Shown: positions 28,518 to 36,495 of the stretch, one piece after another | Layout: the number at the start of each line of letters is the position of its first letter | Position numbering within the stretch: the first letter of the stretch is position 1 | Assembly (NCBI GenBank): GCA_902583635.1 | Contig: CACHWJ010000001.1 | Coordinates: forward strand, 62,001 to 126,000 | Length of the DNA stretch: 64,000 bases | Direction: 5' to 3' | Source: an uncultured Pelagibacteraceae bacterium | GTDB taxonomy: Bacteria > Pseudomonadota > Alphaproteobacteria > Pelagibacterales > Pelagibacteraceae | Program-made: the position numbers and the translations under genes | The notes under the pieces: model-generated | What the model was told of the DNA's origin: nothing | Databases searched by the model: none | What the model saw: only the letters and a program-made list of their open reading frames with translations

Positions 28518-28838
28518 ATGAAAAATTTAAATTTTGAGGAATTAATGGATTTATTTTTATCATATAAAGAAAACAAGGATTATAAGGAGGTTTTGAAAAT
28601 AAATTTAGAATTTAAAAGAAGAGTAAATAAAAGAAAACTCATGAATAAAAAACCAATGAAGACTTCATTATCTGGATTAAATCAAACAGAAGAATGGTTA
28701 AACTTAAATAGTTTTCTTAAAGATAAAATAGATGAAAATTTAAAAAATAGAGATGTCTCAAAAGATAAAACTAGCAAAATTAGAAATAAAAATTTAAGAG
28801 AACCCACTGATATAAATAAAAAAAATACCTTGTGGTAA
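28518..28838 (+). CDS. Small basic island protein with C-terminal LW tail, unknown
   Basis: 106 residues. The first part (1-36) is a predicted helical segment (NFEELMDLFLSYKENKDYKEVL); the rest is Lys/Asn-rich and probably flexible. The last ten residues are TDINKKNTLW. The same kind of ending, D-I-x-K-K/R...L-W, closes the next two proteins (SDIKKRKFLW and NDIRKKKKELW). The gene opens a tightly packed rightward run that ends with the DNA methyltransferase; the next start is 6 bp after its stop. No family recognised. Confidence 0.6.
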   Translation: MKNLNFEELMDLFLSYKENKDYKEVLKINLEFKRRVNKRKLMNKKPMKTSLSGLNQTEEWLNLNSFLKDKIDENLKNRDVSKDKTSKIRNKNLREPTDINKKNTLW

Positions 28839-28844
28839 CCTTTC

Positions 28845-29543
28845 ATGAAAACAAAAATTAAAATTGGAAGAAATATTCCGTTTGGTTATAAATTAATGAG
28901 TAACAGTAACTTATTACAACCAATAAATCATCAATTACAAATTTTAAAAGAAATTAAAAAAGAAATATTTAATGGAAATTTGTCTTTAAGAAATGGAGCA
29001 AAAGAAATAACAAATAAAACTGGCAGGTATTTATCACATCCTGGCTTAGGAAAGATTTTAAACAAGGAATTTGCTGGTTGGCAAAATATCGCAAAGAAAA
29101 AACAGGAAAAATTAAAAATAGAAAAAAAAAAATTATTAGAAGCAACTAAAAAAAAAATAAGAGAAGAAAAAGAGCTAGAAAAACAAAGAATAAAAAACTT
29201 AAAAAAAATTAAATATAAAAATTGCACTATTTGTGATGAAAGAAAACTTGAGAGTGAATTTATTCAAAATAAAACAAAATACTGTCTTAAATGCAAAATA
29301 CTTCTTTTAGAAATGAGTCAAAATTTATTTTTGTATTGTAGAATTTGTGGTAATAAAAAAAAGCTAGAAGAATTCATTGGCACAAATGGCCATAATAAAT
29401 ATAAAACAAAAACTTGTGGGCCATGTTTTAGAGAATATCAAAGAGAGTGGGATAAAAAAAATAAATATAAAAGATTAAAATATATCAGAAAAAGTAAACT
29501 ATTAGGTAGCTCAGATATAAAGAAAAGAAAATTTTTATGGTAA
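28845..29543 (+). CDS. Recombinase-domain-like and zinc-ribbon protein with LW tail
   Basis: 232 residues, probably DNA-binding. Residues 10-80 (IPFGYKL...LSLRNGAKEIT...RYLSHPGLGKIL...FAGW) follow the pattern of the 'Recombinase' DNA-binding domain of large serine recombinases (PfGY, G.slr..a..l, ..s...v..iL.n..y.g), but no resolvase catalytic domain precedes it. A Lys/Glu coiled coil spans about 81-122. Four CxxC pairs follow, at C127/C130, C147/C150, C165/C168 and C191/C194, enough for two zinc sites. The C-terminus is SDIKKRKFLW. Residues 10-80 are paralogous to residues 15-83 of the next protein. It could be a truncated HNH-type homing protein or a regulator. Confidence 0.65.
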   Translation: MKTKIKIGRNIPFGYKLMSNSNLLQPINHQLQILKEIKKEIFNGNLSLRNGAKEITNKTGRYLSHPGLGKILNKEFAGWQNIAKKKQEKLKIEKKKLLEATKKKIREEKELEKQRIKNLKKIKYKNCTICDERKLESEFIQNKTKYCLKCKILLLEMSQNLFLYCRICGNKKKLEEFIGTNGHNKYKTKTCGPCFREYQREWDKKNKYKRLKYIRKSKLLGSSDIKKRKFLW

Positions 29544-29582
29544 AATTTTAATGTTTTCATACAAGATAATAAATAAAGAATT

Positions 29583-30206
29583 GTGGTAGAATTAATAAAA
29601 GGAAAGAAAAGAACAAGTTCAACAATCCCATTTGGATATGAGTTATCTAATGATAAAAAATTATTAATTCCAATAAAAAGCCAAATCGATAAATTAAATG
29701 AGATAAAGATATTAATTTTAAAGGGCGAATTTTCTCTCAGAGCTGCGGCAGAGAAATTAAAAAAAACTACTAAAAGAAAAATTTCTCACGTAGGTCTTAG
29801 AAGAATTTTAGACAATGAATATCCATTATGGAAAGATACAATAAAAGCTGAAAAAGCTAAAATTCAGTTGCAAAGTAGAAAAGTTAAAGAATTTAAAATT
29901 AAAAAAGAACAAGAGCAAAAAAAAATAGATAAGGAAAAAAGAAAAAAAGAGAACTATCTAAAAATGTTAGAAAAACAAAAAATATATCGTAAAGAAAATA
30001 AAGAGAAGATTAGAAGAGCGCAATTAAGCTATCAAAAAAAAAATGAACAAAAGCTAAAAAAATATAGAGAAGAATATTATGAAAAAAATAAGGAGAAATA
30101 TAAAGAATACAGCAAGGAATATTGGAGCAAAAATGCTTTAAAAAGAAAAAAATATTATTTAATGCAAGATAATGACATCAGGAAAAAGAAAAAAGAGCTA
30201 TGGTAA
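29583..30206 (+). CDS. Recombinase-domain-like coiled-coil protein with LW tail
   Basis: 207 residues with a GTG start. Residues 15-83 (IPFGYELS...FSLRAAAEKLK...ISHVGLRRILDNEYPLW) match the recombinase-type DNA-binding pattern and align with the preceding protein. Residues 86-185 are a very long Lys/Glu/Tyr-rich coiled coil with repeats such as YYEKNKEKYKEYSKEYW, a style common in phage HNH-associated proteins. There are no cysteine pairs and no nuclease core. It ends in NDIRKKKKELW, the shared tail. It is 39 bp after the previous gene and 6 bp before the methyltransferase, so it is probably cotranscribed with both. Confidence 0.62.
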   Translation: MVELIKGKKRTSSTIPFGYELSNDKKLLIPIKSQIDKLNEIKILILKGEFSLRAAAEKLKKTTKRKISHVGLRRILDNEYPLWKDTIKAEKAKIQLQSRKVKEFKIKKEQEQKKIDKEKRKKENYLKMLEKQKIYRKENKEKIRRAQLSYQKKNEQKLKKYREEYYEKNKEKYKEYSKEYWSKNALKRKKYYLMQDNDIRKKKKELW

Positions 30207-30212
30207 AATTAA

Positions 30213-31052
30213 ATGAATACTTTTAAATTAGTAAATAATGATAGAATGAAATTGCTTAAAAAACTCAAAAGCAACTCAGTTCAATTAATCATTACTTCGC
30301 CACCTTATAATATTGGAAAATCTTACGAAAAAAAGAAACCACTAAATTATTATTTGCAAGAGCAAGAAAAAACCTTAAAGGAGTGCTTTAGAGTTCTAAA
30401 TAAAAAAGGTAGTTTATGTTGGCAAGTTGGTAGTTATTTTGAAAAGTCTGAGTTATTTCCTTTAGATATTTATATTCATCAAATTTGTAAAAAAATTGGT
30501 TTTAAATTAAGAAATAGAATTGTTTGGCATTTTGAACATGGGCTTCATTCGTACAAAAAGTTTTCAGGAAGATATGAGACTATTATGTGGTTTACAAAAA
30601 CAGATGATTACTATTTTGATTTTGATGACATAAGAGTACCACAAAAATATCCTGGAAAACTTGGATATAGAGGAAAAAAAAAAGGAAAATATACTGGAAA
30701 TGTAAAAGGTAAAAATCCTTCAGATGTATGGATTTTTCCTAATGTAAAAAGTAATCATAAAGAAAAAACAATACATCCTTGCCAATTTCCAATTGAACTT
30801 GCAGAAAGACTTGTTTTATCAATGAGCAAAAAAAATGATTTAGTAATAGACCCTTATGCTGGCGTAGGCACAACTTTAATTGCAGCTTTAAAAAATAATC
30901 GAAAAGCTGCTGGCTCAGAAATATTAAAAAAATATATAAATATTACAAAAAAAAGAATTAATTTACTTAGAAAAAATAAATTACCTTATAGAAAAATGAA
31001 TACCCCAATAAAAATGGTAAGTGGAAATTCAAAGTTGTACACCAGAGGTTAA
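30213..31052 (+). CDS. DNA methyltransferase (N6-adenine or N4-cytosine, beta-type motif order)
   Basis: 279-residue amino-methyltransferase. The catalytic motif IV is TSPPYN (28-33) and the AdoMet-binding motif I, DPYAGVGTT (213-221), comes late, so the order IV...I is that of the beta class (as in CcrM- and DpnA-like enzymes). The region between carries the putative target recognition segment. SPPY is typical of N4-cytosine and some N6-adenine enzymes, so the modified base is uncertain. It is last in the rightward small-gene operon (6-bp gap) and overlaps by 4 bp the convergent nuclease-like gene, so the two operons meet tail to tail. Probably the self-protecting methylase of the island. 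Confidence 0.9.
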   Translation: MNTFKLVNNDRMKLLKKLKSNSVQLIITSPPYNIGKSYEKKKPLNYYLQEQEKTLKECFRVLNKKGSLCWQVGSYFEKSELFPLDIYIHQICKKIGFKLRNRIVWHFEHGLHSYKKFSGRYETIMWFTKTDDYYFDFDDIRVPQKYPGKLGYRGKKKGKYTGNVKGKNPSDVWIFPNVKSNHKEKTIHPCQFPIELAERLVLSMSKKNDLVIDPYAGVGTTLIAALKNNRKAAGSEILKKYINITKKRINLLRKNKLPYRKMNTPIKMVSGNSKLYTRG

Positions 31053-31876
31053 TTTAAAGATAAAGGAGTGATTTTAATATCTTGCCATTCAGCATTAGGT
31101 TTATCTTCAATTCTATAATTGTTATTATTTAATTCTTTAAAATTAATAATTCTAGGACTTTTTTTATTTTGAACCCACAAATGAATAATAAAATTATCTT
31201 TAACAGATTGAGCAAAATTCCATTCACCTCTTGTTAAAAAAAACATACCATTAGCATAAGATGAAGCTTTAACTTCTATAAAGATTTTTTTTGTATTATT
31301 TTCCCATGACTGAACATCGTAACCTAATAAATTATTTTCAAAACTATCCCAGCTAGGTTCTTTATTAATTTTTGATTTTTTTAGTCTATTTTTCTCATAA
31401 ACCATTGTTTTTTTTTCTCCAGATCTACCTAATTCTAATTTAATACTTTTATCCAATTTTCTTACAAATTCAGATATTTCATCCCACCATTTTTGTATAT
31501 TTTCACTCTCTTTATCGAATCCTAATTTATCTAACAAACCAGCTTCCCTTAATAATTGCTCAAAATTTTCAGATATAAATTTTAAAAAAAAAGTTCTTCC
31601 TCCAGTTATCCTAAATAGATAACCTGGTTTAGCTTTTTTCAAGTAATTTGATAAAATTTGTTGAAGAATATACTTTCTTTTATCTATATCATCAGATTTA
31701 GTAAAATTTTCTAGCAATTCTATTCCAACAATATCAATAATTCCCTTTCCAGATTTTACATCGAGAGTTGTCTTATAAGACTCTAAATAGTTAAGATTTT
31801 TGTATTTTAGAAAATTTTTGTCATTTATAATTTCTATGGCTGCTAATAAAGAACTTTTATTGAGTGATATAGGCAT
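31049..31876 (-). CDS. DUF3883-type restriction-endonuclease-like protein
   Basis: 275 residues. The C-terminal half resembles DUF3883, a PD-(D/E)xK-like domain found in restriction and defence proteins. A helix with VYEKNRL (159-165) precedes D187 in LLGYDVQSW and the E201-V-K203 pair in KIFIEVKAS, then FLTRGEWNFA. This gives a plausible D...ExK nuclease centre. The N-terminal 110 residues are helical and unassigned. Its start overlaps the helicase stop by one base (TAATG), so the two are made together, as expected if nuclease and motor work as a complex. The nuclease call is by motif, not proven. Confidence 0.7.
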   Translation of the reverse strand: MPISLNKSSLLAAIEIINDKNFLKYKNLNYLESYKTTLDVKSGKGIIDIVGIELLENFTKSDDIDKRKYILQQILSNYLKKAKPGYLFRITGGRTFFLKFISENFEQLLREAGLLDKLGFDKESENIQKWWDEISEFVRKLDKSIKLELGRSGEKKTMVYEKNRLKKSKINKEPSWDSFENNLLGYDVQSWENNTKKIFIEVKASSYANGMFFLTRGEWNFAQSVKDNFIIHLWVQNKKSPRIINFKELNNNNYRIEDKPNAEWQDIKITPLSLN

Positions 31877-33735
31877 TAATGTAAAAATTCATTAATAATC
31901 CCTTGTAAATCTGAGTCTGAAATATTTTCATCAATTGGATCTACACCTTCAGACTCTTTGAGAGACATTTGTGTTAAATCAGGGTCATTTAAAAATCTTC
32001 CCATATCATCTATTTTTCTTTGTAAAGAGTGATTTACCGCTAAATCAATATTTTTTAAAGTTTTAGGTATTTTGTTTTGTAGAACTTGTATATTTTTCTG
32101 GTCATTATTTCCCAATCTACAAATTCTATCTATAGACTGTAGATATTGATCAGCTTGAAAACTTCTATCTAAATAAATTGCATTATGACAAGCATGATGC
32201 AAACTTATTCCTTCTGCACATGAAGCATAGTTTGCAATTAAAACCATACAATCAGAATTTATGTCTTTAAATTTTTTTATTTTATATTTTCTAGTTTCAA
32301 GCTCTTCATCATCATTGCCCATTTTTACACCGCCGTGTATAAATTCAGCATTTAAATCTTTTAGTAGATAATTTCCAAGATATTCTATATTCCACTTAAA
32401 ATAACTCCATATAACAGTTTTTTTTCCTTCTTTAGCAAGACGTCTAGCCTCTTTGCATGCATATCTGATCTTAGACGATCCTCCATCTTGTTCTTCTTTA
32501 ACTAAAGCTCTATGAATATTAAAATCAATGTTTTCACCTAAAATAATATCTCCTTCTTCTTCCTGTCTACGTGTAACCAAAACAGGATTACTTGAAATTT
32601 GGATGAGTTTAATAATTGATTGTCTTATTTTTTTTGAATTAGAATAATTGATAGTAGAATTTTTTTTTAGTGAAGCTAGTAATGGGTTTAAAACTTTGGT
32701 GTATAAAGCCATTTGAGGTTTAGACATATCTACATTTATTAGTTTTATATTTGGCTCTTTAAGACCAAGTTCTTTCTTCGTTGTTCTAACCCAAAATCTG
32801 CCACCTGTGTATTCAGGACCTGGGTATAAAAATTGAAATTGAGTATTTATATCCTCTAATCTATTTGGAGCAGGTGTACCTGATAAAATATCTTTCCTTA
32901 CAAAATTTACTCTATAAGCCAAACTTAAGACAGCTTGAGATCTTTGAGCACCTTCGCTTTTAATTTTATGACTTTCATCTAAAATAAAATGAACTCTATT
33001 TTTATTAACAAAATTAGCAATTAGATTTCCCTTTGAAATTAACATTTCATAATTAATAATAAAGTTTTTTGCTCCTGAATTGAGTTTTTTCTTTATTGAG
33101 TTATATGTGCCAGTAAGCTCAACTAATCCCTCTTCCTTTAATTTACAATTGTCGTTCAAGCAGTCTTCAAATCCATCTTCCCAACCAAGAAAAGCATTTT
33201 TTGGTGCTACTACGAGCAAACTGTTTACATTAGCTTTTTTGTTATTTCTTAAAAGCAAATGTGCTGCCAATGTTACAGCGGTTTTCCCAGATCCTTGTAC
33301 TGAAAAGTTTGCACCATTAGAGAGTTTTAACAATTGTTTTAAATCTCTTATTTGAAATTCTGTTAATTGTATTTTTGAAAAACCATAAGAACTTAATCTT
33401 TTTATTTCTGTATCATTCAACTCAATATTAAAATTTTTTGATGAGATGAGGTTTTGGTTTTTGATCGTTTCTTGAATTTTTTGTTCTGCTTCTTTGCTAC
33501 AAACTAATTCAAATTTATTAATATCTCTTAAATCTGCTAAGTCATTCAAAATACTTAAAAAAGAAACCCATTCTGCAGTAATTGAAAACTCTTTTTCTTC
33601 TTTAAATGAATTATCTTGAAATTGCTTTATAGTTTTAATTAACTCTTGCCAAACATAGTCTTTAAAATCATTAGATCTTTTTATTTTTACATAAAATTGA
33701 TTATTTTCAGAAACTTGAGAAATGTGCAGTATCAT
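31876..33735 (-). CDS. SNF2-family DNA helicase/translocase
   Basis: 619-residue superfamily 2 ATPase. Seen are a Q-like segment (LTEFQIRDLKQLLKL, 124-138), Walker A VQGSGKT (146-152), motif Ia VVAPKNAFLGWE, the DEAH-like box LDESH (252-256), motif III SGTPAP (285-290), a helicase C domain with VIWSYFKWNIEYL and FIHGG, motif V NYASCAEGISLHHACHNAIYLD and motif VI QSIDRICRLGN. The first ~120 residues are a separate, unrecognised domain. It is 11 bp downstream of the ParB-like gene and one-base coupled to the DUF3883-type gene. SNF2 motors of this type drive DNA translocation in several restriction and anti-phage systems. Confidence 0.88.
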   Translation of the reverse strand: MILHISQVSENNQFYVKIKRSNDFKDYVWQELIKTIKQFQDNSFKEEKEFSITAEWVSFLSILNDLADLRDINKFELVCSKEAEQKIQETIKNQNLISSKNFNIELNDTEIKRLSSYGFSKIQLTEFQIRDLKQLLKLSNGANFSVQGSGKTAVTLAAHLLLRNNKKANVNSLLVVAPKNAFLGWEDGFEDCLNDNCKLKEEGLVELTGTYNSIKKKLNSGAKNFIINYEMLISKGNLIANFVNKNRVHFILDESHKIKSEGAQRSQAVLSLAYRVNFVRKDILSGTPAPNRLEDINTQFQFLYPGPEYTGGRFWVRTTKKELGLKEPNIKLINVDMSKPQMALYTKVLNPLLASLKKNSTINYSNSKKIRQSIIKLIQISSNPVLVTRRQEEEGDIILGENIDFNIHRALVKEEQDGGSSKIRYACKEARRLAKEGKKTVIWSYFKWNIEYLGNYLLKDLNAEFIHGGVKMGNDDEELETRKYKIKKFKDINSDCMVLIANYASCAEGISLHHACHNAIYLDRSFQADQYLQSIDRICRLGNNDQKNIQVLQNKIPKTLKNIDLAVNHSLQRKIDDMGRFLNDPDLTQMSLKESEGVDPIDENISDSDLQGIINEFLH

Positions 33736-33746
33736 CTTTATTTAAA

Positions 33747-35048
33747 TTAAAGATCTTTATCTTTAATAAGTTTTTCAGCTTTTCTAACTACATCTTTTAA
33801 AATTTTCTTTATGTCTCCTTTGTACCTTTCTGGATACTTCATCGAATTCATCGCAGTAACTTTTTGTAAAGCAGACCTAGAATAATTTAATGAAGCCTTA
33901 TCATCACCTGATTGTTCTAATACCTCAATACAAGAGTTTAGAATTTCGATATGTTTATCACCAGATTTTACAGGGACCTGATCAACTATTGTGGCATCTA
34001 TTGCATTTGCTGGATCAACACGCCTCAATCCCCTCATAACATCACTATTATCATCCTTTTTGCTTCTATTATCTTTTACAGAAGTGTATCTACTTTTTAA
34101 ATGACTCAAAACATTGCTAAGATTATTTTTTTTCTGCAATGCCGAAGCAATCTTATAATCTCTATCACCAAAATTACCTGAGTTTACAGATATTATTCTT
34201 GCAATTTTGTATATTAAATCTTTTTCCCCTTTATTTTTATTCCTATGAGCTCTTTCCTCTGTATTTTTCCACAATTGCTCTTGATTTTTAACTTTATCGT
34301 AATCACCAGGACTCTTATGATCATTGTCTAAACAATTATCTATGACGGTAATCAGATTGTATAATCTTTCAATCTCAGGCTCTGTTCTTCCCATGTTGGT
34401 TGCTATTTGCTTATTTGAAAGTTTTAATCTTTTTCTTTCATCTTGAACTTCTAGACATAATGAAATCCAATTATAATCCTGTTTATTTTCTTTAATAACC
34501 TGAAGGAAATTTTCAATTTCTTTAACATCGGTGTCATTAAGATGCTCTTCAATAACAGCACATGGAACTCTTCTATAATTATTGTATTTTTTTTGATCAG
34601 ACTGATATATTTCTCTAATGGCAGCCATTCTTCTGTTTCCATTAATTAGCATTCCATTTGAGTCAATTAACAGAGGCGAGTCTTCTCTAAATGTATTTGT
34701 TGTTTTTAATACTTTGTGAATATTTGCTGTGTTGTCCTGAGAAAGCTTAAACAAAATTTTGTGTTGAATTTTTTGTTGTTGATTATTTTCAAGACCTTTT
34801 TCGAAATAAGATTTAGATAGACTTGAATTAGTTATAAGATGTGATCTTTGAGCGTCTCTAGTTCTACCGTTATTTAAATGGTAAATTGGAATGCCAATAT
34901 CTAACCAAATTATTGGACAAGGTTTAAACTTGTCTTTTATTTTAAAGGTTTCTTTATGACTTATCTTTTTTTTTAGGTTTTCGCGAATTATTTTTTTTCT
35001 CTTTACAATATCAACAACATTGATTTTAAAATTTGTTTCTTCAATCAT
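33747..35048 (-). CDS. ParB/Sulfiredoxin-fold protein with HTH
   Basis: 433 residues, first gene of the leftward ParB-like/helicase/nuclease operon. A ParB N-terminal-like domain is suggested by IGIPIYHLNNGRTRDAQRSHLI (51-72) and by LLIDSNGMLINGNRRMAAIREI (126-147), equivalent to the ParB box where an NTP is bound (dG.vi.G.rR..A). A KorB/ParB-like HTH region follows (LSNKQIATNMGRTEPEIERLYNL, 210-232). The C-terminal 200 residues are charged and not recognised. ParB-fold proteins act in plasmid partition but also as CTP/ATP-dependent sensors or nickases in defence systems. No ParA partner is present, so partition is less likely. Confidence 0.75.
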   Translation of the reverse strand: MIEETNFKINVVDIVKRKKIIRENLKKKISHKETFKIKDKFKPCPIIWLDIGIPIYHLNNGRTRDAQRSHLITNSSLSKSYFEKGLENNQQQKIQHKILFKLSQDNTANIHKVLKTTNTFREDSPLLIDSNGMLINGNRRMAAIREIYQSDQKKYNNYRRVPCAVIEEHLNDTDVKEIENFLQVIKENKQDYNWISLCLEVQDERKRLKLSNKQIATNMGRTEPEIERLYNLITVIDNCLDNDHKSPGDYDKVKNQEQLWKNTEERAHRNKNKGEKDLIYKIARIISVNSGNFGDRDYKIASALQKKNNLSNVLSHLKSRYTSVKDNRSKKDDNSDVMRGLRRVDPANAIDATIVDQVPVKSGDKHIEILNSCIEVLEQSGDDKASLNYSRSALQKVTAMNSMKYPERYKGDIKKILKDVVRKAEKLIKDKDL

Positions 35049-35279: not shown

Positions 35280-35465
35280 ATGGAAATAGGCCGTGCCTGT
35301 AAGTACTGTCACGTGAGTGCTTACGTTGCGTATGATAACTGCGACCCCGTTTATAAACAATCTTTTAAATTCGAAATATTACCAGGTGAACACAACAGTT
35401 TAGTCTGGGATAAAATCATAAAAATATTTAAGAAAAACGGATACAAAGTAGAGCTCAAATCATGA
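35280..35465 (+). CDS. Small island protein with Cys pair, unknown
   Basis: 61 residues with a good Shine-Dalgarno sequence (AGGAG, 35266-35270) ahead of ATG. It has a CKYC motif (8-11), another Cys at 21, and a C-terminal amphipathic helix WDKIIKIFKKNGYKVE. That ending resembles the end of another short island protein at 36322 (LINVLEKNGFKIK). It overlaps the next gene by 4 bp (ATGA). No family recognised; the ribosome-binding site and coupling support expression. Confidence 0.55.
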   Translation: MEIGRACKYCHVSAYVAYDNCDPVYKQSFKFEILPGEHNSLVWDKIIKIFKKNGYKVELKS

Positions 35466-36025
35466 AAAGAGTTTTACTTATTATTTTATTACATCTATCT
35501 CTTTTTTTTCTTGTATTTGTTTATCAAGCCCAAGCTTCTGAAGAAGAATGGAAAATAGATAGATATGAAAGCCTTGCATTTGCAAGAGTTTACGGTGAGG
35601 TAATACATGGAGATAGTTTAAATTTTTTTATTAATTCTAAAGAAAACTGTGAAAAAGTTTGGCATAATTTTACATTTTATACATATGAACAGCCTGGAGA
35701 TATAAAACAATTATTAAACAAAAATATACCAATAAAAATTAATGATGAAGAAGTAACGGCTCATGTTGATCATATTCAGCCATTCTTAATGGGTTACAGA
35801 GTATTGCTATCTTTAGGATCTTACCCAATTAAAGAATATATTTATAAATTAAACAATTTTTATATTGAGGAAAAAAGATTTGAGATTGAAATAATTGATG
35901 GCATTGACTTTAAAGCCAGTAAATATTTTGATATTCGAAATAATAGCTGGAAACTCGATAAACTTGTCTCTTCAGTATTAGAAGCTAATAAGCTTTGCAA
36001 AGAGATTTTTGATAAAAAATTATGA
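35462..36025 (+). CDS. Exported island protein, unknown
   Basis: 187 residues with a clear signal peptide (MKRVLLIILLHLSLFFLVFVYQAQA, probable cleavage after AQA near residue 25). The mature part mixes strands and helices, with Cys residues near 57 and 181 that could form a disulfide. I do not recognise the family. It is joined by 4-bp overlaps to the small gene before it and to the small membrane-protein gene after it, so the three form one translationally coupled unit. The pairing of an exported protein and a membrane peptide in an island recalls immunity or envelope-modifying cargo, but nothing here proves that. Confidence 0.65.
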   Translation: MKRVLLIILLHLSLFFLVFVYQAQASEEEWKIDRYESLAFARVYGEVIHGDSLNFFINSKENCEKVWHNFTFYTYEQPGDIKQLLNKNIPIKINDEEVTAHVDHIQPFLMGYRVLLSLGSYPIKEYIYKLNNFYIEEKRFEIEIIDGIDFKASKYFDIRNNSWKLDKLVSSVLEANKLCKEIFDKKL

Positions 36026-36228: not shown

Positions 36229-36321
36229 TAATTTTGCTTTAGTGTGATATAAATTAACTAGTCTTGATTTAGAACATAACTCTACTTGCTAGGACTATAA
36301 ATAAAACGCTAAAGGAGAAAC

Positions 36322-36495
36322 ATGAAAGTAAAAATACAATCAATAAAAGACTTTTTTAAATCAAAAGAAAAAAAAGGTTTCAAACCTATATTTTTTGAAA
36401 GCATTGGAGGTCAAAACACTTCAAGAGATGAGAAGCTTAAAAATTTGATAAATGTGCTAGAAAAGAATGGATTTAAAATTAAGAATAAAAAATAA
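36322..36495 (+). CDS. 57-residue island ORF with strong ribosome-binding site
   Basis: Short frame starting at ATG 36322, preceded by AAAGGAG (36311-36317) at ideal spacing, the strongest Shine-Dalgarno in this region. The product is Lys-rich and ends in LKNLINVLEKNGFKIKNKK, which resembles the end of the 61-residue protein encoded at 35280 (IIKIFKKNGYKVE). The two may be distant paralogues. No family recognised. The frame stops 3 bp before the right TTTACCAAC repeats. Confidence 0.5.
   Translation: MKVKIQSIKDFFKSKEKKGFKPIFFESIGGQNTSRDEKLKNLINVLEKNGFKIKNKK

Follow-up and report, generated by a model that had tools for sequence, protein, structure and literature searches.

AbiR of Lactococcus pKR223 consists of two loci that flank the LlaKR2I restriction-modification (R-M) genes, an arrangement that recalls the Sau3AI/MutH-linked branch of the gene set described here. 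SNF2 helicases fused to DUF3883, a restriction endonuclease (REase) domain, occur in R-M operons (PMC3710099); PbeA is a fusion of an HKD nuclease and an SF2 helicase (PMC6459918; PMC10853773); and NTP binding among ParB-type folds varies beyond CTP (PMC12704722). We analyzed an island of seven genes in a window (the whole stretch of DNA under study) of 64,000 nucleotides, which belongs to a SAR11-type genome; the best relatives of the island lie in Pelagibacteraceae single-cell genomes. To our knowledge, few defense systems are known from SAR11, an abundant marine group. On balance, we lean toward reading the island as the SAR11 branch of an unnamed, widespread, ATP-dependent and restriction-like defense system organized around a ParB-SNF2-NOV_C module, and the defense or restriction interpretation of the original prediction is supported.

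The island is flanked by tRNA-Val (27812) and tRNA-Met (36622), in surroundings (rpoD, ftsZ, a mur/fts cluster) that we take to be core genes. An ORF check of the window confirmed all seven open reading frames at the coordinates originally given to them, and the features are as follows.

28518..28838, plus strand: P1, 106 aa, no family assigned, C-terminal ...TDINKKNTLW
28845..29543, plus strand: P2, 232 aa, pelagiphage-type N-terminal domain and Cys4 part, tail ...SDIKKRKFLW
29583..30206, plus strand: P3, 207 aa, P2 paralogue without the Cys4 part, tail ...NDIRKKKKELW
30213..31052, plus strand: beta-type DNA methyltransferase with TSPPY motif, predicted N4-cytosine (PF01555 N6_N4_Mtase, 4.7e-58)
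31049..31052, no strand: TTAA, the stop codons common to the convergent methyltransferase and NOV_C genes, read from the sequence
31049..31876, minus strand: NOV_C/DUF3883 PD-(D/E)xK nuclease, 275 aa, predicted effector (PF13020, 2.5e-15)
31876..33735, minus strand: SNF2 motor, 619 aa (PF00176 SNF2-rel, 2.3e-16)
33747..35048, minus strand: ParB-type clamp protein, 433 aa, from a structure model (ddrB-ParB, 4.3e-5, under the Pfam cut-off)
35462..36025, plus strand: small secreted-type protein, with a 51% identical copy adjoining the operon in locus L022 (tblastn)

The P1-P2-P3-methyltransferase operon converges on the ParB-SNF2-NOV_C operon, and the methyltransferase and NOV_C genes overlap tail to tail by 4 bp, a single TTAA providing both stops; the same overlap is present in L022 (91% SNF2 identity) and L024 (47%). 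Because base 31876 is both the end of SNF2 and the start of NOV_C, and only 11 bp separate ParB from SNF2, the starts of these three genes are coupled. The original prediction had described this convergent layout with its coupled starts, three consecutive small proteins ending in LW, a DNA methyltransferase, an SNF2-type motor and a D...ExK DUF3883-like domain, all of which are borne out by the gene boundaries, tails and domain matches listed above. The small secreted-type protein probably moves with the island as a passenger and is not part of its core. A separate stretch of 247 bp (36249-36495) is 84% identical to sequence just past the island in L022; it includes a 57-codon ORF from near 36323 (MKVKIQSIKDFF...), and an Rfam search with it gave no match.

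The AF2 model of the window ParB, computed with 33 homologues, has a pLDDT of 87, and every top Foldseek hit is a ParB, Noc or KorB protein. In VIA it matches KorB with a Z of 10.5 over 199 residues, and Caulobacter ParB and Noc with a Z of 9.0 each, the matches spanning the NTPase and HTH domains. The protein combines an NTPase domain carrying the boxes of the ParB CTPase clamp family (NGRT 60, GNRR 137, E179/Q183) with an HTH domain and a helical C-terminus. Judged by this model, it is a genuine ParB/KorB/Noc-type clamp fold; of the earlier "ParB/Srx-like" label, the ParB part holds on structural grounds, and the generic ParB/Srx designation gives way to a clamp-type ParB. The SNF2 protein contains Walker A GSGKT 148, DESH 253 and QSIDRICRLG 533, and these motor motifs are retained in 93-94 of 94 homologues. 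The NOV_C residues D187, E201 and K203 lie within GYDV 185 and IEVK 200, and YD...ExK is retained in all 77 homologues.

Using only the SNF2 alignment, we scanned 85,000 genomes and analyzed the best 80 of more than 570 loci. In these best 80 of more than 570, chosen by SNF2 alone, ParB adjoins SNF2 in 77, NOV_C lies downstream on the same strand in 71, one of two tested methyltransferase types is found within 6 kb in 63, and the full order of m4C-type N6_N4 methyltransferase, small BstYI/BglII-fold protein, ParB, SNF2 and NOV_C is present in 34. The gene set predicted from the window therefore recurs outside it, with a matching methyltransferase in the operon in at least 34 loci. The full-order loci are distributed across at least eight phyla, those with the BstYI-fold form including Pseudomonadota, Nitrospinota, Spirochaetota, Bacillota, Bacteroidota, Verrucomicrobiota, Ignavibacteriota and Calditrichota; the module in the wider sense extends to Actinomycetota, Acidobacteriota and one archaeon. 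On a Paracoccus plasmid, a single operon encodes the methyltransferase (53% identical), a 156-aa BglII-family protein, ParB, SNF2 (37%) and NOV_C (31%), and searches of plasmids found ParB, SNF2 and DUF3883 genes adjacent to one another. The system is rare, since the ParB family is present in just 4 of 398 evenly drawn genomes of the phylum, the window's own included and one without SNF2; SNF2 was not found alongside the ParB-like match in G464.

The methyltransferase of the window is 53-60% identical to methyltransferases paired with annotated BglII/BstYI REases. In stand-alone R-M pairs with the same subfamily (Acinetobacter, Sphingobium, Komagataeibacter and Spirosoma), the BstYI-like enzymes of all four keep the full set of residues matching BstYI D119, E128, Q130 and K133. 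In contrast, the ParB-linked BstYI-fold proteins have lost both acidic positions in 39 of 39 cases (most often to Phe or Thr plus Gln), with Gln130 and Gly132 retained. The difference between loss in 39/39 linked and retention in 4/4 stand-alone proteins gives a Fisher value of 8e-6, in which independence is overstated, the 39 readers being related; eight other PF09195 proteins, found independently of the module, keep the acidic positions. The substitutions themselves vary, with NNQGK in L025 and L026 and mostly FQQGN or TQQGN in the short readers. The L026 protein can be aligned to BstYI from end to end (8e-42), and Asn replaces both D119 and E128, a different route to carboxylate loss from that of the short readers.

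The model of a 154-aa reader has a pLDDT of 94.5, and its significant PDB hits in Foldseek, 16 in number, are all BstYI, BamHI, OkrAI or BglII. Reader and ParB genes are separated by -17 to +97 bp, nearly all by -17 to +17, and this close spacing, together with the conservation of the protein, makes a decaying gene unlikely. The dead BstYI-fold protein probably only reads DNA, without cutting it. The wider system has a fifth core gene, the one for this catalytically dead protein; it is missing from the SAR11 copies. Annotators should be warned that such a reader can be called a type II REase: PADLOC scores the dead L026 protein as one at 1.9e-45.

These data bear directly on the possibility that the methyltransferase belongs to an ordinary type II R-M system with a hidden endonuclease and merely adjoins an unrelated ParB-SNF2-NOV_C accessory cassette. 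The subfamily does occur in plain two-gene R-M pairs, a cognate member is present in the window, and the module has partners among other R-M types as well. However, a competent BstYI/BglII-fold endonuclease is absent from the window and from L022-L024 and dead in the 39 linked loci, no live enzyme of this kind being found in any linked locus, and the methyltransferase and module are linked across many phyla and in SAR11. We regard this explanation as improbable.

Beyond the BstYI-fold form, the module pairs with a 5mC methyltransferase plus Vsr, with Sau3AI/MutH-type enzymes and with type III systems. Res partners in the type III-linked branch of Lactobacillales retain their own TPD...ExK, so replacement of a dead nuclease by the module is not general, and a rule of dead nucleases for every branch was rejected. 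Several further arrangements were observed. On Bacilli plasmids (L009, L012 and L013), ParB adjoins SNF2 proteins that begin with a PbeA-like PLD nuclease (tested in L009 and L013), and in L009 and L013 this PLD-SNF2 lies beside Sau3AI/MutH-type enzymes and 5mC methyltransferases, forming a second effector branch. Loci L074-L101, mainly from Actinomycetota, make up a second large branch with a 5mC methyltransferase and Vsr, some with an uncharacterized protein of ~280 aa in the reader slot. A sister branch (L056, L058, L059, L061, L063 and L064) has its methyltransferase gene downstream in most members, and in some members of the branch an uncharacterized gene of 478-548 aa ahead of ParB replaces the BstYI-fold gene.

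The SNF2 tree places the four SAR11 copies with L025 and L026 (support 99) within the clade linked to the methyltransferase and BstYI-fold genes. Both of these loci come from marine alphaproteobacteria, carry dead BstYI readers of full length and are the nearest relatives outside SAR11. A six-frame HMM search for a BstYI-fold gene in the SAR11 loci (the window and L022-L024) was negative, with a best E of 0.41. The simplest reading is that the reader was lost or replaced in the SAR11 copies. The window copy is a variant of this SAR11 branch, in which the methyltransferase converges on ParB-SNF2-NOV_C and a dead reader is lacking. Searches for P1, P2, the methyltransferase, SNF2 and ParB in 150 close genomes recovered only the window's own genome, plus two distant methyltransferases (33%), and the neighbors in other SAR11 carriers are his genes (L022), other genes (L023) and gltX-lexA-trpC-trpD (L024). 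At the level of genome comparison, the SAR11 island is shown to have been acquired horizontally. Between the window and L022, the core genes have a dN/dS of 0.02-0.09 and P1-P3 one of 0.2-0.4, rough ratios given a dS of 1.25-2.6, near saturation; by these estimates all island genes are under purifying selection. A PDDEXK_1 (RecB/Cas4-like) nuclease gene is coupled directly upstream of ParB in L023 and L024 and lies nearby in L022, L025 and L026, and it is present in only 2 of 51 SAR11 relatives. Neither the window nor its genome (82% complete) yielded this nuclease gene, which was therefore rejected as a part of the window copy.

Three of the 57 genes in the window end in LW, all three consecutive, at a Trp frequency of 0.75%, so coincidence does not account for it; P2 and P3, however, are paralogues (35% identity). 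P1 has a homologue in L022 only (63-68% identity, dN/dS 0.21); family searches assigned it to none, and a search of 149 relatives gave no homologue. The front domain of P2 and P3 is shared with a ~85-aa pelagiphage protein encoded next to terminase, residues 10-74 of P2 being 47.7% identical to an HTVC115P protein. Four CxxC motifs in P2 (127, 147, 165 and 191) form a zinc-binding Cys4 part that resembles the front of EndoVII proteins. P2 was considered as the missing endonuclease and rejected, since its phrog endonuclease VII match (7.8e-6) covers residues 165-214 only, within that zinc-binding front, and no complete HNH was seen. The Trp-tailed proteins evolve fast and adjoin the methyltransferase in two of the four SAR11 copies, the window and L022. 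The original prediction placed them in one operon with the methyltransferase; as core parts the three proteins were rejected, since apart from a single short relative in L023 they occur in no locus but the window and L022. P1, P2 and P3 (ends 28838, 29543 and 30206) and the L023:12182 protein have a common C-terminal tail, [S/T/N]-D-[I/L]-x-K-x(3-5)-[L/T]-W, and our guess is that this Trp-ending tail serves as a docking peptide or coupling signal.

We propose that the methyltransferase would mark self DNA with m4C at a GATC-core, BstYI-like site, and that the dead BstYI-fold protein would sense the unmethylated BstYI-type site. RGATCY occurs in the window 62 times against 61 expected, i.e., it is not avoided, a count that is uninformative here. 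Sensing would load or close the NTP-bound ParB clamp on DNA; ParB would then recruit the SNF2 motor, which would translocate along the duplex, and NOV_C would cut the foreign DNA. In SAR11 another protein may act as sensor, perhaps the methyltransferase, the HTH domain of ParB itself, or P2/P3. Like type I and III systems, such a machine would keep recognition and cleavage apart, but it would be built from a re-used type II enzyme. We tentatively propose, at somewhat below an even chance, that such machines form a restriction class not named before: a nuclease-dead site reader, converted from a type II enzyme, would load a ParB NTP-clamp that engages an SNF2 translocase and NOV_C, with SAR11 holding a derivative without the reader. 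For the window copy the reader step is conjectural, because SAR11 copies are without the BstYI-fold reader. If true, the use of a ParB clamp for signaling in restriction would be new in principle and would give such clamps a possible role beyond chromosome segregation; the system would also trace how a type II enzyme can come to serve as specificity subunit in an ATP-driven machine, and would add an unnamed restriction system across many bacterial phyla and SAR11.

The same components could instead act by abortive infection, the complex responding to altered DNA or to a replicating phage and NOV_C attacking host DNA, with methylation as a safety catch. PbeABCD halts viral DNA replication without visible cleavage of viral DNA and can adjoin methyltransferases (PMC6459918; PMC10853773), and PLD-fused SNF2 relatives of the module match the front part of PbeA; yet the methyltransferase subfamily and BstYI-fold reader suggest site-specific discrimination of self from non-self, and the gene set has no toxin-like component, which leads us to consider abortive infection unlikely, to about the same degree as a plain type II system. 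Less likely still is a mobile-element cassette for anti-restriction or self-protection, akin to polyvalent phage and plasmid proteins with their methylase-SNF2 dyads and DdrB-type ParB domains: these hold the same domain trio (PMC5512222), some copies of the module reside on conjugative plasmids and weak ddrB-ParB and PHROG helicase matches exist, but the window copy has no adjoining virion or transfer genes, long chromosomal contigs account for most of the scanned loci, a NOV_C nuclease and dead REase suit restriction better, and phage records and viral-contig scans gave no match, the viral contigs holding no close relatives of ParB, SNF2, P1 or P2.

The restriction-like reading that we favor can be set against the named systems. 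The original prediction put the set outside DISARM, BREX and type III, among others; our searches agree for these three, and they found no named system with these components. PADLOC (2023), NCBIfam (2026), Pfam and PHROGs name single domains only and no such system, and in the open literature no paper was found that combines DUF3883, ParB, SNF2 and a methyltransferase or describes the set; the ParB-SNF2-NOV_C system thus appears to be unnamed in the databases and open literature searched, with priority not certain. Among the island proteins there was no match to BREX PglZ or BrxC/PglY, nor to Pbe genes among those of the window. A type III Mod and Res pair is likewise not seen, PF00176 being the best motor family, the Res Pfam model weak and a Res nuclease end missing.

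Polyvalent DarB/DdrB-type phage proteins bring methyltransferase, SNF2 and ParB domains together; here these are separate cellular genes accompanied by a nuclease and a dead REase, and ParB is a full clamp with an HTH domain. DISARM likewise unites a methyltransferase, an SNF2-type helicase and a nuclease in a methylation-based system, whereas the window lacks DUF1998 (DrmB), DrmA and DrmC: six of the seven island genes have no Drm match, and SNF2 has weak DrmD/DrmA domain matches (<20 bits), a distant likeness at 18-19 bits to DrmD against an NCBIfam cut-off of 610. PbeABCD and CxC-DndE systems also couple an SNF2-type motor to a nuclease and DNA modification, and the PLD-SNF2 branch of the module has the PLD part of PbeA; the window branch, however, is without a CxC ABC-ATPase or DndE cognate, with ParB instead and NOV_C replacing the HKD nuclease. 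BstYI/BglII type II R-M systems use the same methyltransferase subfamily (53-60%) and the same reader fold, but here the REase is dead or absent and three ATP/NTP-machine genes are added.
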